64,000 nt of DNA, from positions 1 through 64,000 of the forward strand of contig BDTX01000017.1 of the NCBI GenBank assembly GCA_002897615.1, read 5' to 3'. This document shows, one piece after another, positions 21,111-38,094 of this stretch (the first letter of the stretch is position 1; each line of letters begins with the position of its first letter). This DNA comes from a bacterium BMS3Bbin14 (GTDB lineage Bacteria > Desulfobacterota > Desulfobulbia > Desulfobulbales > Desulfobulbaceae). Below the pieces are notes generated by a model. It worked only from the letters and a program-made list of their open reading frames with translations, searched no databases and was not told where the DNA came from. The position numbers and the translations under genes are program-made.

Positions 21111-21146
21111 TTGCGGGGAGGCCAGCGGTTTCAAACGGTGAATAAT

Positions 21147-21614
21147 GTGAAGGAAAAAGTTTCCGAATTTCGGTTCCGCAGCAGGTCGGAACATACGCTT
21201 GACGCCAAGGGTCGGCTCAACATTCCGAGCCGGTTCCGGGAGGTTCTGCGCGAAGTCTATTCCGAAACCCTGGTTGTCACCAACTGGCAGAAGAGTTTGA
21301 AGGCCTACCCCGCGGCCGAGTGGGAGCGGGTGGAAAAAAAGTTGCTCACCGAGGCGCCTGGTCTGTCCGGCTTCAGTGATTTTGTTCGTTATGTCATCTC
21401 GGGCGTCACCGAATGTCACCTGGATAAACAGGGGCGGATCCTGCTGCCGGGGTCCCTGCGCTCCGAGTTCGGTTTCGGCAACGAGGTGGTTTTGAACGGG
21501 ATGCTCAATCATTTCGAGATCTGGGACAAGGGCGCCTGGCAGGACGAGACCAGGCGGACCCGCGACAAGTTCGAGGATTTCGCCCCGGGTCTTTCGTCGC
21601 TGGGCATCCTCTAG
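21147..21614 (+). CDS. mraZ: Transcriptional regulator MraZ
   Basis: About 155 residues with two swapped-hairpin AbrB-like repeats. The first has EHTLDAKGRLNIPSRFREVL, the second ECHLDKQGRILLPGSLRSEF, each with the conserved D-x-K/Q-GR pattern. MraZ is a DNA-binding repressor of its own dcw operon. The start is uncertain: the GTG at 21147 gives the usual length; the GTG at 21138 and TTG at 21111 are in frame. Three 10-bp repeats upstream fit its operator. It is the first gene of the cluster, 2 bp from rsmH. Confidence 0.92.
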   Translation: MKEKVSEFRFRSRSEHTLDAKGRLNIPSRFREVLREVYSETLVVTNWQKSLKAYPAAEWERVEKKLLTEAPGLSGFSDFVRYVISGVTECHLDKQGRILLPGSLRSEFGFGNEVVLNGMLNHFEIWDKGAWQDETRRTRDKFEDFAPGLSSLGIL

Positions 21615-21616
21615 TT

Positions 21617-22549
21617 GTGCGGCCATGGGCTGATCTCCATATCCCGGTCCTGGCGGACGAGGTCATCAGTTACCTGCAACCTGTAACCGGCGGCCTCTAC
21701 ATGGACGGGACCCTGGGCCTGGGGGGGCATGCCGCGGGGATTCTCAAGGCGGCCGCCCCGGATGGCCGGGTTATCGGTTTTGAATGGGATGAGCAGGCGG
21801 CCGGGCTGGCGGCGGAGCGCCTGGCCGCATTCGGCCGGCGCCTGACGATTATCCGCACCAGTTATGCCGATCTGACGGCGGCATTGCAGCAGGCGGGGAT
21901 TGAAACCGTCGATGGTCTGCTGCTGGATCTCGGGGTTTCGTCACTCCAGCTTGACCGGGGGGAACGGGGGTTCAGCTTCCAGGCCGATGCGCCCCTTGAC
22001 ATGCGCATGGATGTCCGCCAATCGATAACGGCGGCGCAGCTCATCCGGCGCTTGTCCAAGGAACAGCTGGCGGATATTTTTTACAACTACGGCGAAGAGC
22101 GGCAGGCCCGGCGCATAGCCGCCCACATTGTTCAGGCCCGGGAAGAACGGGCGGTGGAGACAACGAGGCAGCTTGCCGAAATAGTGGCCGCCGCCGTACC
22201 GAGAAAATTCCACCCGCGGAAGAGGCATATGGCAACCAGGGTTTTCCAGGCCCTGCGCATAGCCGTCAACCGGGAACTCGATAACCTGGTCCGGGTACTC
22301 GCCGATGCGCCATCGGTCCTGCGGCCCGGGGCCAGGATGTGCGTGATCACCTTTCATTCGCTGGAGGACCGGATTGTCAAGCAGGCCTTTGCCGCCAATC
22401 CGGCTTACGCGGTTGTCACCAGGCACCCGGTTGAACCATCGCCTGATGAAGTAAAGGCTAATCCCCGCTCCCGAAGTGCCAAGCTCCGGGTCGCCGTCCG
22501 GACGGAGCGGCGTGGGAATGAAGGGCTTGCTCCCGTCGGGGCCGGATGA
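21617..22549 (+). CDS. rsmH: 16S rRNA m4C1402 methyltransferase RsmH (MraW)
   Basis: A 310-residue SAM-dependent methyltransferase. Characteristic motifs: HIPVLADEVI, the SAM loop DGTLGLGGHAAGIL, LLLDLGVSSLQLD, FHPRKRHMATRVFQALRI, and FHSLEDRIVKQAF near the C-terminus. It methylates N4 of C1402 in the ribosomal decoding centre. The start is GTG at 21617, straight after the mraZ stop. A family B remnant (22585-22620) lies between it and ftsL. Confidence 0.95.
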   Translation: MRPWADLHIPVLADEVISYLQPVTGGLYMDGTLGLGGHAAGILKAAAPDGRVIGFEWDEQAAGLAAERLAAFGRRLTIIRTSYADLTAALQQAGIETVDGLLLDLGVSSLQLDRGERGFSFQADAPLDMRMDVRQSITAAQLIRRLSKEQLADIFYNYGEERQARRIAAHIVQAREERAVETTRQLAEIVAAAVPRKFHPRKRHMATRVFQALRIAVNRELDNLVRVLADAPSVLRPGARMCVITFHSLEDRIVKQAFAANPAYAVVTRHPVEPSPDEVKANPRSRSAKLRVAVRTERRGNEGLAPVGAG

Positions 22550-22636: not shown

Positions 22637-22993
22637 ATGATAGCAGGTTTCAACTCAAAGCTTTTTCGTCCGCAGACCGTAACCGGCATGCGTCAGCATG
22701 TAGCGGTCCGTGCTGTCCCCGAAGTATCACCACGGTTGCTCAGGCTGGTGACGGTCATTCTTTTCACGGGGATTGTTGTTGTTTTCTCGGTGGGCCAGTT
22801 CATGCACGGACGCATTGAGAGCGCCGCCGGCCGGATTGATCAGTTGCAGACCGTCCGTTTCCAGGCCGGCAATGAGAATATCAGTCTGCTGGCCGCCAGG
22901 GCGCAGCTGGCATCAAGGAAAAATGTCGTAAAACAGGCGGCACAACGGTTCCAGCTCATGGTCCCGGGAAAAGGCCAGGTTCGTTATCTCTAG
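22637..22993 (+). CDS. ftsL: FtsL-like cell division protein
   Basis: A 118-residue bitopic membrane protein: about 35 cytoplasmic residues, one transmembrane helix (LVTVILFTGIVVVFSVGQF, residues about 36-55), then a periplasmic helix with heptad character (IDQLQTVRFQAGNENISLLA). Size, topology and position between rsmH and the ftsI-like gene identify FtsL, which with FtsB and FtsQ activates FtsWI; sequence identity in this family is always weak. The start ATG at 22637 has GGAGGA 7 nt upstream. Nested family A elements begin at its stop codon. Confidence 0.8.
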   Translation: MIAGFNSKLFRPQTVTGMRQHVAVRAVPEVSPRLLRLVTVILFTGIVVVFSVGQFMHGRIESAAGRIDQLQTVRFQAGNENISLLAARAQLASRKNVVKQAAQRFQLMVPGKGQVRYL

Positions 22994-23310: not shown

Positions 23311-25170
23311 ATGATAATAGGGGCGGCCCGGAAAAAGAAACGCAAGAGGCAGCGTTTATATGGCATCATATTTTCGGTTTTTTTGCTGGCAGCGGTTGGG
23401 GTAGCTCTGTGTTGGTTCCCTTTTTCCCTCCAGGATATCGGCAAGATAACCCGGCTCGCTGCCGGCAGAATTACTGAAAAGTCAGCGGACATTATGTCCG
23501 CTGACTCTATTTTGAGGGGTTCGATTTTTGACCGGAACTTCCATGAACTGGCCGTGAGTTACCGGGTCTATTCACTCTATGCCCGGCCGCTTGAACTGGG
23601 AAACCGGAGCGAGGCCGCCCGGTTGCTGGCCGGAGTCATCGGTGAAAACCAGGACGTGATCGAGGCCCGGTTGAAAAAGCCGCAGGGCGTCATCGAGGTT
23701 GCGGATGACCTTGACAGAAAGCAGGCCGCCGCCATCAGGCGTCTGAAGATTGCCGGGGTGTTCTGTAACCCGAAGGAAGAGCGTTTTTACCCGGAGCATG
23801 AGACCGCGGCGCAGGTCATCGGCTTTTCTGGCGACGGCGTGGGCCTGGCCGGGGTCGAGGGCCGGTATGATACGATTCTGAGGCATGGTGAGTTTAAGGG
23901 TGACACGATTCCGGAAATTGATTTTGCCGGGCAGAATATTCTTGGCCATTCAAGAATGGACCTGGTGTTGACCATTGACCTGGGATTGCAGAAAGAGATT
24001 GAACAGCGGCTCCGGCGGTACATGGAGCGGCAGCAGGCAAGTGAAGGGCTGGCCGTCTTGTTGCAGCCGGAGACCGGCGCCGTTCTAGCCGCCGTTGTCC
24101 TGCCGTCCTTTAATCCGAACTATTTCTGGCAGTCGACCGATGCCAGCCATAGAAGTCTTTTTTGTAATTTTCTTGACCCCCGGTTGCTTCGTCCCCTCCT
24201 GGTTCGGGCGGCGGCCGTGCGCAGAAACGGTGCCCTGGGGCGGGCCCTGTTGCCTGAAACCGTTGCCGCCCCGGATTTCGGCTTGCCGGAAAAGGATATT
24301 GAACGGTATGAGACGGCGATCGGCCTGTATGAGACGATTCAATGCCTCTCCCCGGCCGGCGACGGGAAAGAGGGGAGGCAGGGAAGGACAGGACAGGATC
24401 AGTCCATTGCCGGCGGGGTGAACATCATGCAACTGGCAACAACGGTCGCCGGGCTGGTGAACGGCGGTTGGAAGATAAGGCCGCATGTGCTGGATTCGGT
24501 CCTGGATCGTTCTGCCGGCCGGCGTTTTCACCGTTCGCGGGAGTTTGACGGCGGGGCGGGGCGCCATCGTATTATGTCGCCGACCATGGGGGTCAGGATG
24601 CGCAGAGAACTTTTTGCGGCGAACAAGCGGGTTACAGACGGTTTCCTGCTGTATACGGATTCGGCAGTGGGAGTTGCCGACAGGGGCGGGGACTGCAAAT
24701 ATGTCATGCAGGATCTCCTGATCGGCATGATGCCCAGGGCCTTCCCGACAATGCTGCTGGCCATGGCCACCAGGCGTGATTATCTCTATCCCCTGGCCAA
24801 GCCTGCGGAAAAAGGCACCAGGAGGCTCGCCGCGCTTGGCCGGGAGCTGCTCCCGTCTCTGTATCGACAGGCGGCGGCCTGGAAAATGGCCGCCCATGTT
24901 CCGGTTGGAGCGAACAAGGCGAACTACGAGCAGTTCCTGGTCAGCCGCAGCATTGATTTCCAGCCGCGGAAGGTGGGCGCTGCCGACACTGATTCGTTGA
25001 TGCCCCGGGTCACCGGCCTCAGCCTGCGCAAGGGATTGCGGCGTCTGAGCCGCCATAATCTCCGGATACGGATCGAGGGCAGCGGCCGAATCGTGGCCCA
25101 GAATCCGCAGCCCGGCAAACCCCTGAACAACGCCGGCGAGTGTGTCTTGACCCTGGCGCCGGAAATTTGA
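23311..25170 (+). CDS. ftsI: FtsI/PBP3-like protein with degenerate transpeptidase site and PASTA domain
   Basis: A 619-residue protein. After an N-terminal transmembrane helix (about 17-37) comes the PBP dimerisation domain (RGSIFDRNFHELA at 69, ERFYPEHETAAQVIGFSGDG at 157, LVLTIDLGLQ at 218), a transpeptidase-like domain (PETGAVLAAVVLPSFNPN at 253, IMQLATTVAGLVNGG at 372, IGMMPRAFP at 471), and a PASTA domain (about 564-619). At the place of the EPGSxFK serine motif it reads LDPRLLRPLL (289-297), and at KTGTA it reads TDSAVGVA (449-456); no SxN motif is seen. It therefore looks unable to form an acyl-enzyme. The frame is fully intact. The only Shine-Dalgarno is AGG from the adjacent mobile element. 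Confidence 0.85.
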   Translation: MIIGAARKKKRKRQRLYGIIFSVFLLAAVGVALCWFPFSLQDIGKITRLAAGRITEKSADIMSADSILRGSIFDRNFHELAVSYRVYSLYARPLELGNRSEAARLLAGVIGENQDVIEARLKKPQGVIEVADDLDRKQAAAIRRLKIAGVFCNPKEERFYPEHETAAQVIGFSGDGVGLAGVEGRYDTILRHGEFKGDTIPEIDFAGQNILGHSRMDLVLTIDLGLQKEIEQRLRRYMERQQASEGLAVLLQPETGAVLAAVVLPSFNPNYFWQSTDASHRSLFCNFLDPRLLRPLLVRAAAVRRNGALGRALLPETVAAPDFGLPEKDIERYETAIGLYETIQCLSPAGDGKEGRQGRTGQDQSIAGGVNIMQLATTVAGLVNGGWKIRPHVLDSVLDRSAGRRFHRSREFDGGAGRHRIMSPTMGVRMRRELFAANKRVTDGFLLYTDSAVGVADRGGDCKYVMQDLLIGMMPRAFPTMLLAMATRRDYLYPLAKPAEKGTRRLAALGRELLPSLYRQAAAWKMAAHVPVGANKANYEQFLVSRSIDFQPRKVGAADTDSLMPRVTGLSLRKGLRRLSRHNLRIRIEGSGRIVAQNPQPGKPLNNAGECVLTLAPEI

Positions 25171-25183
25171 GGGGGCCGGCACC

Positions 25184-28100
25184 ATGGTGTTGCTTGGAGA
25201 GCTTCTCGACCCGGTAAGCTGCACGGTCAACCCGTTCGGCCGAACCTTGCTGGAACGGCCGGTTACCGGCCTGACCTGCGATTCCCGGGCGGTCATCCCC
25301 GGTTCTGTTTTTGTCGCTGTCAAGGGGCAGGAGGCTGACGGGCATCGTTACGTGTCCCAGGCCGTCGCCAGGGGCTGCCTGGCCGTTGTTGTCGACCGGG
25401 AAGTGGAAACCGCAAAGGATGTGGCTGTGGTCATGGTGGCGGACAGCCGCCGGGCGTTTGGTCACCTGGCGGCCGCTTTTTACGGTTATCCGGCCCGGGA
25501 AATGACCATGATCGGCCTGACCGGCACCAACGGCAAGACGACGACCTCATGGCTGGTCGAGGGGATGCTGCTGGCGGCCGGCCGGAGGCCGGGCGTGATC
25601 GGCACGGTCAACTACCGCTACCTGGACCGCCGGGGCGACATGGTGGTTCGGGACGCCCCTTTGACTACACCCGAACCGGTGCGGTTACAGGGATTGCTGC
25701 GGGAGATGGCTGACAGCGGCGTCACCCATGTCGTGATGGAGGTTTCATCCCATGCCCTGGTACTGGAACGGCTGGCCGGTCTCTATTTTGACGTGGGGGT
25801 TTTTACCAATCTGAGTCGTGATCACCTTGATTTTCATGGGAGTATGGAAGCGTATTTTCAGGCCAAGCGGAAGCTTTTTCATGATTTTCTGGCCCCGGCC
25901 GGGGTCGCGGTGGTGACCTTTGTCCCCGGCAGGCAAGACCGGGAGACTGCCGGTGACGGTTGGGGCCGGCGACTGGCCCGGGAACTGCGGGAGAAGGGAA
26001 TGGCGCCGTTTTCCGGGACCGGTGGCCGGCAGTCTCTTATCACCTGCGGCTTTGCCCCCGGCTGCGAGGTCAGGGCCGAAGAGCCGGTCCAGGACCTGGA
26101 CGGTCTGCGCTGCACCATCCATCTCGGCGGCCGGGCAGTGCCCCTGGAATCAGGGCTTATCGGCCGCTATAACGTGCTCAACCTGCTGACGGCAGCCGGG
26201 GTCGGGCTGGCCCTGGAGCTGGAACCGGAACAAATATGCGGCGGGCTGGCCGCGGTGCGGGGGGTTGCCGGCCGGCTCGAACGGGTCCGGCTTGCCGGCC
26301 AGGGACAATGGCCGCCCGGTCCGGCCGTGTTTGTCGATTACGCCCATACCCCCGATGCCCTGGAGAATGTTCTCCGGACCCTGCGCCGGCTGGTAAGCGG
26401 CCGCCTGGTTTGTGTTTTCGGCTGCGGTGGGGATCGGGACCGGGGGAAACGGGCGATGATGGGAGAGGTGGTCGGCCGCCTTGCCGATGTGGCCCTGCTG
26501 AGCTCGGATAATCCCCGGCGCGAGAATGCGGCCGCTATTGCCGCCGATATTGAACCGGGGCTGCGGCAAGGCAGGATGGAAAAGACCGACCTTGAGCACC
26601 TGTTGAGCGGTAAGACCCGGGCAAGGGGCTATGTCCTCGTGGCTGACCGGCGGCAGGCCATCCAGGCGGCCTGCGCCCTGGCAACCGGAGAGGACCTGGT
26701 CCTGGTTGCCGGCAAGGGCCATGAAACCTACCAGATTATCGGCGATGAAAAACGATTCTTCGACGACCGGCTGGAGGCAAAAAACGCCCTGTTGCGCTGG
26801 AACACCGACCATCTCCTCCGGGCGACCGGCGGCACCCTGAGCAGCGGCGGCCGCCGGGTCCTGCTTGGGGCGATCTCTACCGACAGCAGGACCATCGAGC
26901 CGGGTGATGTATTCCTCGCCCTGACCGGCGAACATTTCGACGGCCATGATTATGTGGATATTGCCGTGCGTAAAGGGGCCGCGGCCGTGATTGTCGAGCG
27001 TCCTTTACCGCCGGACCGGCGGCAGGAAACAGCGGTAATCCTGGTGGCCGATACCCTGCGGGCCCTCGGCGACCTGGCCCGTTACCGGCGCCGCCTGCTG
27101 GCCCCGGCAGTGCGGGTGGTGGGGATCACGGGCAGTTCGGGAAAAACAACGGTCAAGGAAATGACGGCGGCCATTTTCGCGGCCGAGTACGAAGCTGTTG
27201 GTTGTGACTCCGTCCTCAAGACGCGGGGCAACCTGAACAACCTCATCGGCCTGCCTCTGTCCCTGTTGCGGCTCAAGGCCGAACACCGGGTCGCGGTGCT
27301 GGAGATGGGCATGAACCGGCCGGGCGAGATCAAGCGGCTGGCCGGGATCGCCGATCCTGATATCGGCTGCATTACCAATGTTCAGGCCGCCCACCTTGAG
27401 GGACTGGGGACGATCGACGGAGTGGCCGCGGCCAAGGGTGAACTCTTTGCCGCCATGCGCGATGACGCCGTGCGGGTCATCAACTATGACGATCCGCTGG
27501 TCCGGCGCCTGGCCCGGCAGGGCAGGGGCGGCCGGATCGGTTTTGCCGTCAGCCGGTCGGGAAGACGTTATCACCCCGAGGTGCGGGTCACCCGGGTCAG
27601 GAGCCTCGGCGTTGCCGGAATGCGCTTCACCCTGCAGATCAATGACCGGCAACAGCGGCTCACCGTTCCGGCCGTGGGACAGCATAATGTCGGCAACTGC
27701 GCGGCGGCGGCGGCCATCGCCCTGGCCGCCGGGGTCGGGCCGGACGCCATTGTCCGGGGCCTCGGGCGCTACCGGTCGGGAGACAAGCGGCTGCGGTTGC
27801 GCCGGCTGCCCCGCGGCCTTCGGGTGGTCGATGATTCGTACAACGCCAATCCCGCTTCCATGGCGGCGGCGCTCAATACGGTCAGGACCTTCGGTGACCG
27901 GTGCCGGCGGGCGGCGGCCCTGGGTGATATGCTGGAACTGGGCGCGGGCGCGGCGGCCGCGCATCGGCAGATCGGCCGGCTGGTTGCCGAACTGGGCTAT
28001 GACTTTCTGGCGGTTACCGGGCAGTATGCCGAAGAGACAGCCCGGGCGGCCGAAAAATCGGGCCTGGCCCCCTCCGGCGTCATGGTCTGCGCCGATACCG

Positions 28101-28270
28101 ACGCCATGGCCGCCTGGTTTGCCGGTCTCATGGCTGAAGAACGAATGCGGAGCGGCGACTGGCTGCTCGTCAAGGGATCACGCTCCATGCGCATGGAGCT
28201 GATGTTGCAGTCACTGGAACTATTGCTGGGGGGAGCCCCCGGGTCCCTCACCGAAAAATCGAACGGTTAG
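25184..28270 (+). CDS. murEF: MurE-MurF fusion (UDP-MurNAc-tripeptide and pentapeptide ligases)
   Basis: A 1028-residue double Mur ligase. Residues about 1-545 are MurE: LTGTNGKTTT (P-loop), DHLDFHGSMEAYFQAK with the carbamylated Lys, and DNPRREN, the meso-diaminopimelate-recognition motif. Residues about 550-1028 are MurF: STDSRTIEPGDVFLAL, ITGSSGKTTVKE, GNLNNLIGLPLSLL, VVDDSYNANPASM. The junction near NTDHLLRATGG has no stop and the halves share one frame. The fusion would add diaminopimelate and then D-Ala-D-Ala to the nucleotide precursor. The start ATG at 25184 is 13 bp after the ftsI-like stop; mraY follows after 6 bp. Such fusions are known in a minority of bacteria, e.g. Bordetella. 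Confidence 0.95.
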   Translation: MVLLGELLDPVSCTVNPFGRTLLERPVTGLTCDSRAVIPGSVFVAVKGQEADGHRYVSQAVARGCLAVVVDREVETAKDVAVVMVADSRRAFGHLAAAFYGYPAREMTMIGLTGTNGKTTTSWLVEGMLLAAGRRPGVIGTVNYRYLDRRGDMVVRDAPLTTPEPVRLQGLLREMADSGVTHVVMEVSSHALVLERLAGLYFDVGVFTNLSRDHLDFHGSMEAYFQAKRKLFHDFLAPAGVAVVTFVPGRQDRETAGDGWGRRLARELREKGMAPFSGTGGRQSLITCGFAPGCEVRAEEPVQDLDGLRCTIHLGGRAVPLESGLIGRYNVLNLLTAAGVGLALELEPEQICGGLAAVRGVAGRLERVRLAGQGQWPPGPAVFVDYAHTPDALENVLRTLRRLVSGRLVCVFGCGGDRDRGKRAMMGEVVGRLADVALLSSDNPRRENAAAIAADIEPGLRQGRMEKTDLEHLLSGKTRARGYVLVADRRQAIQAACALATGEDLVLVAGKGHETYQIIGDEKRFFDDRLEAKNALLRWNTDHLLRATGGTLSSGGRRVLLGAISTDSRTIEPGDVFLALTGEHFDGHDYVDIAVRKGAAAVIVERPLPPDRRQETAVILVADTLRALGDLARYRRRLLAPAVRVVGITGSSGKTTVKEMTAAIFAAEYEAVGCDSVLKTRGNLNNLIGLPLSLLRLKAEHRVAVLEMGMNRPGEIKRLAGIADPDIGCITNVQAAHLEGLGTIDGVAAAKGELFAAMRDDAVRVINYDDPLVRRLARQGRGGRIGFAVSRSGRRYHPEVRVTRVRSLGVAGMRFTLQINDRQQRLTVPAVGQHNVGNCAAAAAIALAAGVGPDAIVRGLGRYRSGDKRLRLRRLPRGLRVVDDSYNANPASMAAALNTVRTFGDRCRRAAALGDMLELGAGAAAAHRQIGRLVAELGYDFLAVTGQYAEETARAAEKSGLAPSGVMVCADTDAMAAWFAGLMAEERMRSGDWLLVKGSRSMRMELMLQSLELLLGGAPGSLTEKSNG

Positions 28271-29360: not shown

Positions 29361-30752
29361 ATGCAACCGGCAAAAGATATACGGGCCGTCGTTGTCGGCC
29401 TCGGCGCCTCGGGCCTGGCGGCAGTCCGTTTTCTGCACGGCCTGGGGGCCAGGGTCTCGGTCTCTGAATCGCGGCCCGAAACCCGGATTGCCGGGGATAA
29501 CCTGGCCTTGTTGCGGCGCCTCGGCGTGGCCCTGGAGACCGGCGGCCACACCACCGGGTTTTTCGCCGGTGCCGAGCTGGTGGTCCCGAGCCCCGGCGTG
29601 CCCCTGGATCTTCCGGTTCTCAAGTATGCTGCGGCACAGGGGGCCGCCATTGCCGGCGAACTGGCCCTGGCCGCCGGCAGGATCCGGGTCCCGGTCGTCG
29701 GGGTGACCGGCAGCAACGGCAAGACCACGGTGACTTCGCTGCTTGGTGATCTTTTGCGGGCCGGCGGCCGCCGGGTTTTCGTGGGGGGGAATATCGGCAC
29801 CCCGCTGTTGAATTATCTGCAGGACCCCGGGGGCATCGAGGTGGTGGTTCTCGAACTCAGCAGCTTTCAGCTTGAGTTGTCCGGGACATTCCGGCCCGAC
29901 GTGGCCCTGTTTTTGAACCTGTCGCCGGATCATCTTGACCGGCATGGCTCCATGGAGCGCTACGGGGCGGCCAAGCGCCGGATTTTTGCCAACCAGGGGC
30001 CGGGGGACATCGCCATTGTCGGCGCCGACGATCCCCTGGTCATGGCGGCGGCCGTGACCACCGCGGGGACGGTGCTTCGTTTTGGCCGGTCGCCCCGGGT
30101 CGAGGCCCGGGTCACGGAGAGCGGGGTGTCTCTGACCGGTTCTTTTGCCGGTGAAAAGGTGAACGAGACCTATGATTTGCGGAAAACCCGGCTGGCCTCG
30201 GCCGTAAACCGGTTGAATGCCGCCGCCGCCATCCTGGCCGCCCGGTCGCTGGGCTGCCGTCCCGGGAGCTGTCGGACCGGGCTGGCCGGCTACACGCCTC
30301 CCGGGCACCGCATGGCCGTGGTCGCCGAGATTGACGGGGTCCTCTTTGTGGATGATTCCAAGGGGACGAATACCGGCGCCGTGGCTGCGGCGCTCGCCAG
30401 TTGCCGGGGGCCGGTGGTCCTGATCGGCGGCGGCCGGGACAAGGGCAGTGATTTTACCCTCCTGCGGCCGGCGGTCGAGCGGCATGTCCGGCGGCTCGTC
30501 CTGATCGGAGAAGCCGCCGATGCCATGGCCGCAGCGCTTGGTTCGCTGGTCCCGGTGAGCCGGGCCGACAGTATGGAGGATGCCGTCAGCCGGGCGGCGG
30601 CGGCGGCCCGGCCGGGAGATACCGTACTGCTGTCGCCGGGCTGCGCCAGCTTTGATATGTTCACCGGTTACGCCGAGCGGGGCCGGATTTTTCAACAGGC
30701 CGTGGCCGACCTGCGCCGGACACTCAGGGTTGCTTCAGGAGAGAGATTATGA
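29361..30752 (+). CDS. murD: UDP-MurNAc-L-alanine:D-glutamate ligase
   Basis: A 463-residue Mur ligase with the N-terminal Rossmann-like UDP-binding domain (VVGLGASGLAAVRFL), P-loop VTGSNGKTTVTSLL, LNLSPDHLDRHGSMERY with the carbamyl-lysine region, PPGHRMAVV, and FVDDSKGTN. It adds D-Glu to UDP-MurNAc-L-Ala. The start ATG is at 29361. Its stop overlaps the following small zinc-ribbon gene by 4 bp. In most Gram-negative dcw clusters ftsW comes next; here it does not. Confidence 0.97.
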   Translation: MQPAKDIRAVVVGLGASGLAAVRFLHGLGARVSVSESRPETRIAGDNLALLRRLGVALETGGHTTGFFAGAELVVPSPGVPLDLPVLKYAAAQGAAIAGELALAAGRIRVPVVGVTGSNGKTTVTSLLGDLLRAGGRRVFVGGNIGTPLLNYLQDPGGIEVVVLELSSFQLELSGTFRPDVALFLNLSPDHLDRHGSMERYGAAKRRIFANQGPGDIAIVGADDPLVMAAAVTTAGTVLRFGRSPRVEARVTESGVSLTGSFAGEKVNETYDLRKTRLASAVNRLNAAAAILAARSLGCRPGSCRTGLAGYTPPGHRMAVVAEIDGVLFVDDSKGTNTGAVAAALASCRGPVVLIGGGRDKGSDFTLLRPAVERHVRRLVLIGEAADAMAAALGSLVPVSRADSMEDAVSRAAAAARPGDTVLLSPGCASFDMFTGYAERGRIFQQAVADLRRTLRVASGERL

Positions 30753-30970
30753 TCAGCGTTTGTTGCGAGTGCAAAAGAACCAGGCTGGACGGTAGATGGT
30801 TCGGGGGTCGTCTGCCCCTGAATGATGAACCGGTTACGCACGTCTACTGTCCGGAGTGCTTTCAGAAAATGATGTTGAGGATTGACCGGTTCGGCCGCCG
30901 GCGGGCGGCCGGGAAACGGTTTGCCCTGGAAGCGCCGCCGGTACCAGCCAAAGCATGCGCATTATTGTAA
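30749..30970 (+). CDS. Small zinc-ribbon protein in the usual ftsW position
   Basis: A 73-residue protein, MISVCCECKRTRLDGRW at the start, then VTHVYCPECFQKMML. The two C-x2-C pairs, the Trp and the spacing resemble the small ribbon often found attached to response-regulator or PAS proteins in this phylum, here free-standing. Coding support is good: its ATG overlaps the murD stop by 4 bp and its stop overlaps murG by 16 bp, with a plausible Shine-Dalgarno (GGAGAG). It has no membrane segment, so it cannot replace FtsW. Function unknown; a regulatory or scaffold role in cell-wall synthesis would be a guess. Confidence 0.75.
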   Translation: MISVCCECKRTRLDGRWFGGRLPLNDEPVTHVYCPECFQKMMLRIDRFGRRRAAGKRFALEAPPVPAKACALL

Positions 30971-34493: not shown

Positions 34494-35426
34494 ATGTACA
34501 GGCCGCGGGTACCGGAGAAAGTGGGAGGGTTCAGGCGATTGGCAGATTGGCTCGCCACCGCGGCCAGGGGCCTGCCGGCAAGGCTGCGCCGGCGTCATCC
34601 GGGGCTGCCCCACGCTGTTGCCGCCCGTCAGCGCTCATGGCAGTTGAAAAAGCTGTCGCGCCGGGCAACGTTCGGCCTTATCCTGGTACTTCTGGTCGTT
34701 GCCGGCGGCTGGCTGAGCTATAGGATGGTGTCTGCCTCCGATATTTTCTGCCTGACAACGGTGACGATCAAGGGCAATAAAATGACGAGAGATCAGCAGA
34801 TTATTGATGCGGCCCGGCTCGAACCGGGCGGCAACCTGCTGGCCCTGGATACCGTCCGGGCCGCCAAGATGGTTGAAAAGCTGCCCTGGATTGCCCAGGC
34901 CCGGATCAAGCGATATTGGCCGTCAACGGTAGAGGTCATTGTTCAGGAACACCGGCCTCTGGCCCTGGTCAATCTCGGGCCGGCAGGGCGGCAGCGCCTT
35001 TTTTACGTGGATGAGCAGGGCCGGGTCTTTGCCCCCCTTGCCGTGTCAGGGGATTGCGATTTTCCGGTCCTGACCGGGACTGCCGTTACCGGGAGCCTGA
35101 AGGACGGGCAGGTCATGGCGGACTCCCAGGCGGGCCAGGCCCTGGCTCTTTTGCAGCTGGCCGCCCGGGGGAACCAGATTCTGCCGGTTCAGTCCATCTC
35201 GGAGGTCCATGTCAGCGACAAAGAAGGTTTGATCGTCTACCTGGTCGATTATCCCTTCCCTATCTATATGGGCAATGAGCACATTCGGACCCGGTACTAC
35301 CAGCTGGTCAAGATTCTCGGCCGGCTCTACCGCCGGCACCGGGTCAAGAACATTATTGAAATTCGCATGAATTATGCAAAAAACAGGATTCTGGTGGCCA
35401 GCTCGGGGCCTTTGAAAGGGAAATGA
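34494..35426 (+). CDS. ftsQ: Cell division protein FtsQ
   Basis: A 310-residue bitopic protein: about 60 basic cytoplasmic residues, one transmembrane helix (FGLILVLLVVAGGWLSYRM, about 61-79), a POTRA domain (CLTTVTIKGNKMTRDQQII, LPWIAQARIKRYWPSTVEV), and the FtsQ beta domain (RLFYVDEQGRVFAP). It links FtsL/FtsB to FtsA and the septal synthase. The long basic N-terminus is slightly unusual. The start ATG is at 34494 and the stop overlaps ftsA by 4 bp. Confidence 0.93.
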   Translation: MYRPRVPEKVGGFRRLADWLATAARGLPARLRRRHPGLPHAVAARQRSWQLKKLSRRATFGLILVLLVVAGGWLSYRMVSASDIFCLTTVTIKGNKMTRDQQIIDAARLEPGGNLLALDTVRAAKMVEKLPWIAQARIKRYWPSTVEVIVQEHRPLALVNLGPAGRQRLFYVDEQGRVFAPLAVSGDCDFPVLTGTAVTGSLKDGQVMADSQAGQALALLQLAARGNQILPVQSISEVHVSDKEGLIVYLVDYPFPIYMGNEHIRTRYYQLVKILGRLYRRHRVKNIIEIRMNYAKNRILVASSGPLKGK

Positions 35427-36655
35427 GTATGGAAGAAAACGACGAAATTCGAGAACAGGGTATGCTGGTTGCGGGGCTCGATATCGGGACGACCAAGATA
35501 TGCGCCGTGATCGGCGAGGTCTTTGCAGATCGCGTCGATGTCATCGGCGTCGGGATTGCCGCCTCTTCCGGGATGCGGAAGGGCGTTGTCGTCAACATCG
35601 AGTCGACGGTCAAGTCCATCCGCGAGGCGGTGACCAAGGCCGAGGACTCGGCCGGCTGTGTTATCGAAACGGTGTTTGTCGGGATTGCCGGTAATCATAT
35701 CAAGGGGTTCAACAGTCCCGGGATTATTGCCATCAATAACCAGGAAATCAAGCAGAAGGACATTGACGCGGTCATCCAGGCCGCCCAGACGGTCAAGATT
35801 TCAGCCAACCAGCAGATCATCCATGTGCTGCCGCAGGAGTACATGGTCGATGACAACACCGGAATCCAGAATCCCCTGGGCATGACCGGGGTGCGCCTGG
35901 TGACCAATGTGCATATCGTCACCGCGGATGTCACCGCTCTGCACAACCTGGTTACCAGCTGCAACCGGGCCGGTTTGCAGGTGTCCGAGATTGTCCTTGA
36001 ATCTGTGGCCTCTTCGCATACCGTGCTGAACCGGGACGAAATGGAACTCGGCGTCTCCCTGGTGGATATCGGCGGCGGCACCACGGACCTGGCCATTTTC
36101 TGCAACGGCACCATCAAGCATACCTGGGAGCTGGCCCTGGGCGGCAACAGTCTGACCAGTGATCTGTCGGTCGGCCTGCGGACACCGCTGCAGAATGCGG
36201 AAGAACTCAAATATATGTATGGCGCCGCGCTCTCTTCGATGATCAAGGAAAACCTGGTGGTCGAGGTGCCGACCGTCGGCGACCGCAAACCGCGCAAGGT
36301 TTCGCAGCGGGTCATGGTGGAAATCCTGGAGGCGCGGATGGAGGAAATCCTGCAGCTGGTGAATAAGAATATCAGCACCTCCGGTTACCGCAGCCATCTG
36401 AATGCCGGGGTCGTGATCACCGGCGGCACGGCCCTGCTGGCCCACATGGTGGAGATGGCCGAGCAGGTTTTTGATATGCCTGTCCGCATCGGTTATCCGC
36501 ACGGGGTCGGCGGCCTGGTCGAGGAAGTGGATTCACCGCGCTGTACCACCGGGGTCGGCCTGCTTCTTTACGGCGGTCAGGCCATACGTTCCAGGGCCAG
36601 GGGGCCGAAAGGCGTTATGGGGAAATTGACAAAATGGGTGAAAAATATAGTCTGA
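35423..36655 (+). CDS. ftsA: Cell division protein FtsA
   Basis: A 410-residue actin-like ATPase. Phosphate loops VAGLDIGTTKICAVIGEV and LVDIGGGTTDLAIF, the 1C domain between (VFVGIAGNHIKGFNSPG), and VVITGGTALLAHMVEMAE are visible. The C-terminus MGKLTKWVKNIV is an amphipathic membrane-targeting helix. FtsA tethers FtsZ to the membrane and activates the late divisome. It overlaps ftsQ by 4 bp. A family B element lies between ftsA and ftsZ. Confidence 0.97.
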   Translation: MSMEENDEIREQGMLVAGLDIGTTKICAVIGEVFADRVDVIGVGIAASSGMRKGVVVNIESTVKSIREAVTKAEDSAGCVIETVFVGIAGNHIKGFNSPGIIAINNQEIKQKDIDAVIQAAQTVKISANQQIIHVLPQEYMVDDNTGIQNPLGMTGVRLVTNVHIVTADVTALHNLVTSCNRAGLQVSEIVLESVASSHTVLNRDEMELGVSLVDIGGGTTDLAIFCNGTIKHTWELALGGNSLTSDLSVGLRTPLQNAEELKYMYGAALSSMIKENLVVEVPTVGDRKPRKVSQRVMVEILEARMEEILQLVNKNISTSGYRSHLNAGVVITGGTALLAHMVEMAEQVFDMPVRIGYPHGVGGLVEEVDSPRCTTGVGLLLYGGQAIRSRARGPKGVMGKLTKWVKNIV

Positions 36656-36857: not shown

Positions 36858-36900
36858 ATTATTGAGTAAACAGGGAATACCGAAATTCGAGGGGGAAACC

Positions 36901-38094
36901 ATGGCGTTCAGAATGGTTGAGGAAGAATCTGTGGCGATCATCAAGGTGATCGGCGTCGGCGGCAGCGGCGGTAATGCAATTAACACCATGGTGGAGAACC
37001 GCCTGGGCGGGGTCGAGTTTATCGCCGCCAATACCGATATGCAGGCGCTGGAGCGTTCCCGCGCCGATATCCGCTTGCAGCTCGGTCCCGGGATCACCAA
37101 GGGGATGGGGGCCGGCGCCGACCCGGAAAAGGGCAAGGACGCCGCCCAGGAAAGTTACGAGGATATCCAGGGGGTGCTCCAGGGGGCGGACATGGTTTTC
37201 GTTACCGCCGGACTCGGCGGCGGCACCGGCACCGGCGCCGCCCCGGTTATCGCCAAAATGAGCAAGGAGTCCGGGGCGTTGACCGTGGCCGTCGTCACCA
37301 AGCCTTTCTATTTTGAAGCCAGGACCAGGATGCGCAATGCCGAGAAAGGCTGGGAGGAATTAAAAAAATATGCCGACACCATCATCACGGTACCCAACGA
37401 CCGGCTCCTCGGCCTGATGCAGAAGAACTCCACCCTGGTCAGCATGATGCAGATGGTTGACAATGTTCTGCTGCAGGCCGTCAAGGGGATAACCGACCTG
37501 ATCAATCTGCCCGGCCATATTAATGTTGATTTCGCCGATCTGAAAACGGTGATGAAAGAAGTGGGACCGGCCATTATGGGCTCCGGGGCCGCAGCCGGGG
37601 AAAACCGGGCCACCGAGGCGGCCAAGAGGGCCATCGATAACCAGTTGCTGGAAGACGTGGGTATTGACGGCGCCAAGGGTATTCTTATTAATATCTCCGC
37701 GACCCAGGACAGCCTGACCATGGTTGAATTCATGGATGCCTCGGCCCTGATCCAGGAAAAGGCGCACGAGGATGCCAATATTATCATCGGCGCCCTCTTT
37801 GACGAGTCCCTGGGCGAAGAGTTGCGGGTCACCGTCATCGCCACCGGCATTGCCGGCATGGAGGAAACCGAGACCATCCCGCACATCGAGGTGACGCGGA
37901 ACAGAAGGCAGGAAGAAGAGTTAGCGCGTCATCAGGAGCCGAAAGTGCCGAGGGAGTCCGGGGAAAATCGGACGGAGAGAAATGCCTCGCCAAACCCGGT
38001 GCCGCGTTCACGCATCATGCCGCCACCGATTTTTGACGATCATGAAAGCGATGACTGGGAAGAGCCGGCCTATATTCGCAAGAAAGCAAATTAG
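36901..38094 (+). CDS. ftsZ: Cell division GTPase FtsZ
   Basis: A 397-residue tubulin-like GTPase. [18 protein letters not shown] at the N-terminus, the signature [17 protein letters not shown], the T7 loop region [11 protein letters not shown], a variable linker (about 335-380), and a C-terminal peptide [14 protein letters not shown] that fits the FtsA-binding tail. It forms the Z-ring. The ATG at 36901 is chosen because GAGGGGG lies 6 nt upstream and homologues start there; an in-frame codon at 36862 overlaps the family B flank. The element upstream separates it from ftsA and may affect its expression. Confidence 0.97.

Follow-up and report, generated by a model that had tools for sequence, protein, structure and literature searches.

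The dcw cluster and its FtsI homologue

The window analysed here, 64,000 nucleotides from the start of contig BDTX01000017.1 of the Desulfobulbaceae bacterium BMS3Bbin14, contains a dcw cluster with the gene order mraZ, rsmH, an FtsL-like ORF, ftsI*, a murE-murF fusion, mraY, murD, murG, murC, murB, ftsQ, ftsA and ftsZ. We use FtsI* for the class B PBP (bPBP) encoded at the ftsI position. The main features, in window positions and in residues of FtsI*, are:

21129-21614: MraZ, with RsmH the head of the dcw cluster
21617-22549, + strand: RsmH (MraW), head of the dcw cluster
22637-22993, + strand: FtsL-like bitopic protein, 118 aa, in the ftsL position
23311-25170, + strand: FtsI* (P0001), catalytically dead class B PBP in the ftsI position
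FtsI*, within residues about 4-35: transmembrane (TM) helix, from the AlphaFold model
FtsI*, residues about 65-217: pedestal (PBP_dimer)
FtsI*, residues about 218-545: transpeptidase-derived domain
24172-24195, + strand, FtsI* residues 288-295: LDPRLLRP, remnant of the EPGSxxK nucleophile motif, with Ser replaced by Leu292 and Lys by Arg294 or Pro295
FtsI*, residues about 562-617: PASTA
25184-28270, + strand: MurE-MurF fusion, one 1028-aa ORF
30753-30954, + strand: empty murD-murG interval of about 200 bp, the site of ftsW in outgroups
34494-35426, + strand: FtsQ (POTRA and FtsQ C-terminal domain)
35423-36655, + strand: FtsA
36862-38094, + strand: FtsZ

The cluster is otherwise complete around ftsI*, and the order RsmH-FtsI-MurE/F-MraY-MurD-(FtsW)-MurG-MurC-MurB-FtsQ-FtsA-FtsZ, which is common to ten outgroup genomes, identifies FtsI* as the FtsI orthologue. 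The FtsL-like ORF (22637-22993) has no Pfam match and is assigned to FtsL by position and topology only; a bitopic ORF of about 119 aa occupies the ftsL position in many class members, and in 33 of the 48 relatives scanned a similar ORF with one TM immediately precedes ftsI*. An earlier survey of division genes reported ftsL to be mostly absent in Desulfobulbaceae (PMC7873302), whereas here an FtsL-like ORF is in place.

A first-pass annotation, made from the letters of the sequence, had described an uninterrupted 619-codon frame with the full architecture of a class B PBP, and both descriptions hold. The frame runs from an ATG at 23311 to 25170 on the + strand without interruption, and the architecture is corroborated by Pfam matches to PBP_dimer (PF03717, residues 69-172, 2.4e-12) and PASTA (residues 564-609), by profile alignment, and by an AlphaFold model (pLDDT 79.9, pTM 0.73) that resembles class B PBPs. 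Foldseek matched this model to SpoVD (7rcz, E 5.6e-30) and to PBP3 (E about 1e-26, TM-score by target about 0.66), and Pfam gave no match to the PF00905 transpeptidase domain in FtsI*. As modelled, then, the bPBP fold survives in FtsI* without the chemistry. Like FtsI/PBP3, the protein has a dcw place between rsmH/ftsL and murE, a single N-terminal TM helix, a pedestal (PBP_dimer) and a transpeptidase fold, and its C-terminal PASTA domain is as in PASTA-bearing bPBPs; unlike FtsI/PBP3, it has none of the SxxK, SxN and K[ST]G motifs, no cognate SEDS partner FtsW and an unconstrained active-site face. We predict that FtsI* neither binds penicillin covalently nor acts as a transpeptidase.

Loss of the active site

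In an alignment of FtsI* with canonical FtsI of other lineages, LDPRLLRP fills the EPGSxxK columns, and both the SxN and the KTG segments are deleted, the latter with DSAVG at residues 450-454. The family profile, aligned with the solved P. aeruginosa FtsI (chain 25hr_B), returns an identical register. The first-pass annotation had called the active site dead on the grounds that Ser had become Leu292 and Lys had become Arg294, that DSAVG stood in the place of KTGTA, and that SxN was absent. All of this is upheld except the fate of the Lys, which is ambiguous: its column falls on Pro295 by MAFFT and on the preceding Arg by profile alignment.

The same condition prevails among the orthologues. 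We pooled the 37 nearest genomes, 30 genomes across the families of the order, and 58 named loci (48 of them class members) into 93 distinct class sequences, with all 15 families sampled (f2 and f11 by partial copies only). Not one of the 93 has Ser at the nucleophile column, and none has a K[ST]G triad in the KTG column. We considered whether the motifs might be hidden elsewhere in the protein and rejected this: KTG or KSG strings do occur in orthologues, scattered over non-homologous places that vary between genomes, two nearby SxxK strings (L018, L094) lie outside the aligned column, and FtsI* itself contains no intact SxxK/SxN/KTG set at any other position.

Within the order, the residues that replace the nucleophile and the Lys vary freely (L, G, E, T, A, M and others), the pattern that a single loss of catalysis in the common ancestor would be expected to produce. 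Such variation also bears on the proposal that the transpeptidase is still active with unconventional catalytic residues. The retained fold would suit that proposal, as would the recurrence in family f1 of an Arg-Pro pair close to where the Lys once stood, but an alternative chemistry is hard to reconcile with substitutes that are not conserved, with deletion of the two further motif segments, and with an active-site face that is less conserved than any other part of the extracytoplasmic domains. We regard it as extremely improbable.

Distribution and selection

The class in question is Desulfobulbia, which includes the cable bacteria and is represented by one order in the data used. Carriers of the dead FtsI include Desulfobulbus, Desulfogranum, Ca. 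Electrothrix, Ca. Electronema and many uncultured members; by contrast, all ten FtsI examined from other families of the phylum, in the equivalent dcw position, keep SxxK, SxN and KTG. The dead proteins form a single clade with 100/100 support, on long branches. All orthologues examined in the order are dead, and no close relative retains the motifs while the copy in the window decays. The inactive FtsI is an ancient, class-wide state coupled to the loss of FtsW and not the quirk of one genome, so that the first-pass annotation, although right about the inactivation, underestimated its scale and missed the loss of FtsW altogether. Relatives of FtsI* among phages were only distant, ordinary bPBP matches.

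Between the source genome and a congener whose protein is 91% identical, dN/dS is 0.23 over the whole of FtsI* and 0.16 in the pedestal, the signature of purifying selection. Constraint is also redistributed along the protein: pairwise identities of the pedestal, the active-site side and PASTA are 0.36, 0.20 and 0.45 in the class, against 0.34, 0.44 and 0.31 in canonical FtsI. Conservation is therefore inverted in Desulfobulbia, with the greatest extracytoplasmic variability on the catalytic face and the highest conservation in PASTA, and this inversion is the strongest argument that FtsI* acts through its pedestal and PASTA domain.

The fast evolution of the transpeptidase region (identity 0.20 among class members) and the long tree branches are what a decaying pseudogene or a sequencing artefact might produce. 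Decay or error would not, on the other hand, leave an intact frame here and open frames of full length in almost every orthologue from 15 families, a dN/dS of 0.23, a conserved pedestal and PASTA domain, and an unchanged place in the dcw cluster; the small number of copies that are split, among them G006 and G121, plausibly reflect frameshift errors. We reject this explanation, whose probability we put as very slight indeed.

In two single-contig relatives a gene occupies two adjoining frames, ftsI* in one (G006, L022) and rodA in the other (G008:C1:137697-138757); both splits are probably assembly frameshift errors.

Loss of FtsW and the remaining SEDS and bPBP genes

With murD ending at 30752 and murG starting at 30955, there is too little space between them for ftsW. 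The source genome has one SEDS gene, which adjoins mrdA downstream of mreB and mreC, and its product passes the NCBIfam cutoff for RodA and fails that for FtsW. Of the 145 class genomes that are at least 90% complete, exactly one SEDS match is found in 140, two matches, from fragments, in two, and none in three (G022, G037, G149). We attribute the three to gaps in draft assemblies, of which there are many among the genomes compared. Two or more SEDS are present in 57 of 74 genomes from other members of the phylum. Ten outgroups with two SEDS have one of them in the murD-murG interval and the second next to mrdA. In a tree that included four SEDS from the class, these four group with RodA, outside FtsW (100/100). 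A relocated FtsW was considered and rejected, since no further SEDS was found and those placed in the tree are RodA.

Exactly two PBP_dimer proteins, MrdA and FtsI*, occur in 56 of 58 class genomes, with one in each of the other two; MrdA keeps its catalytic motifs. A search of the source genome for other class B PBPs returned MrdA and no hidden division bPBP, and no second intact FtsI or division bPBP was found in the 58 class genomes.

Loss of FtsW is not unique to the class, an idea that we rejected on finding RodA beside MrdA as the only SEDS in seven of 12 other single-SEDS genomes examined in the phylum (G163, G169, G172, G173, G201, G220, G224; L210, L213-L218), from families f26, f32, f35, f36, f52, f57 and f58.

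Proposed role of FtsI* and the septal synthase

FtsI is the septum-crosslinking enzyme and is normally essential for bacterial division. The pedestal and TM helix of a bPBP contact its SEDS partner and the FtsQLB complex, and the pedestal normally binds and activates a SEDS. Because FtsI is dead and FtsW is lost, the class must build its division wall with other enzymes. We consider it very probable that FtsI* is an ancient pseudoenzyme scaffold, and that the septal wall is made by RodA-MrdA, by class A PBPs, or by both. The suggestion in the first-pass annotation that the protein is kept as a structural or regulatory subunit of the divisome thereby gains support, although this role is one that we infer from conservation and synteny rather than demonstrate, and the partners of FtsI* and the replacement for FtsWI are likewise proposals.

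The sequence of events was probably as follows. In the common ancestor of the class the FtsW-FtsI division synthase would have been dismantled, ftsW being deleted from between murD and murG, and FtsI losing its catalytic Ser and Lys and its SxN and KTG elements. FtsI* would have been kept as a membrane-anchored pseudoenzyme whose pedestal binds FtsQ, its likely partner, and the FtsL-like protein, while its strongly conserved PASTA domain probably contacts peptidoglycan or another envelope partner. From there it would recruit or switch on the true septal synthase at the Z ring. The candidates left for that synthase are the class A PBPs and RodA-MrdA, the sole SEDS-bPBP pair, which would then act in elongation as well as in division.

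One specific form of the scaffold model has RodA-MrdA make septal peptidoglycan by alternating between the MreBCD elongasome and the divisome, with FtsI* as the divisome-side adaptor. That the class has no other SEDS-bPBP pair favours it, as does the location of the pair downstream of mreB and mreC; FtsI* could contact RodA, given what bPBP pedestals normally do, and the arrangement is viable, RodA being the only SEDS in seven further lineages of the phylum. We rate this form as approaching an even prospect. A bolder version, in which throughout the class, multicellular cable bacteria included, a dead FtsI adaptor made of pedestal and PASTA switches one RodA-MrdA synthase between elongation and division, we advance tentatively.

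In the other specific form, class A PBPs make septal peptidoglycan, after the model of Clostridioides difficile, and are regulated by FtsI* in the way that PBP3 regulates PBP1 there. Two class A PBPs with recognisable motifs are present in the genome:

L002: class A PBP, 639 aa
L147:3325-6741, contig G000:C3, - strand: class A PBP, 1138 aa, with a large insertion

In the second of these the transpeptidase domain is split by the insertion, and Pfam support is weak. Almost all of the class genomes tested contain it, either full length or as two neighbouring pieces, which together with the C. difficile precedent (PMC10693644, PMC12539705) speaks for a septal role. The protein is, however, not confined to genomes without FtsW and not present in all of them: families f29, f39, f65 and f79 have it too, with at least two SEDS genes in f29 and f39, and a search of class genome G047 did not find it. 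Beyond the class and those four families, the full-length form was not seen in the other genomes searched. The case for the 1138-aa protein as a class-specific replacement synthase is weakened by its presence in sister families that have more than one SEDS and by the G047 result, and we hold synthesis by class A PBPs to be possible but somewhat doubtful.

Comparison with known divisomes

The FtsW-FtsI pair has been regarded as universal, and as indispensable for building the septal wall. An exception was described in 2023 for C. difficile, and probably other clostridia, which divides without FtsW/FtsI by using a class A PBP (PMC10693644); there the class B PBP3 promotes septation, and its catalytic activity is not needed (PMC12539705). 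Desulfobulbia resemble the C. difficile divisome of these two reports in having no functional FtsW/FtsI pair and RodA-MrdA as the sole remaining SEDS-bPBP, just as RodA-PBP2 is the sole essential such pair there, and in having a class B PBP that would aid septation without catalysis, a part played by PBP3 in C. difficile and proposed from the genes for FtsI*. The two differ in that the dcw SEDS/bPBP pair of C. difficile is still present and is sporulation-specific, whereas in this Gram-negative class ftsW has been deleted and the FtsI active site erased in situ; moreover, the use of a class A PBP as septal synthase is a C. difficile trait that in Desulfobulbia is only a candidate. Desulfobulbia thus represent an independent, Gram-negative exception that is fixed across a whole class.

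A structural role for a division bPBP independent of its catalysis is known from B. subtilis PBP 2B (PMC5656894). As proposed for FtsI*, the inactive PBP 2B S309A supports division structurally while another transpeptidase supplies the activity; that protein, by contrast, carries an engineered point mutation and is rescued by another class B PBP, whereas FtsI* is natural and ancient and has no second division bPBP beside it. Here the structural role of FtsI has been separated from catalysis by natural evolution and not by mutation. This makes three questions testable: which portion of FtsI is required by a divisome, whether RodA is able to build septa, and whether these sulfate reducers and cable bacteria go on dividing in the presence of FtsI-selective beta-lactams.

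Within the class, the survey of division genes in cable bacteria and Desulfobulbus already found ftsW and ftsN absent from four genomes, and ascribed septal synthesis to an active FtsI, following E. coli (PMC7873302). Our results agree with it on the absence of ftsW; the loss of the FtsI active site and the class-wide scope were not reported there. A keyword search of the literature likewise returned no report of an inactive FtsI or of class-wide scope in Desulfobulbia, which is no proof of priority since subscription papers lay mostly outside the search. Annotation by name, by which the presence of FtsI implies the presence of a septal transpeptidase, is wrong for Desulfobulbia.
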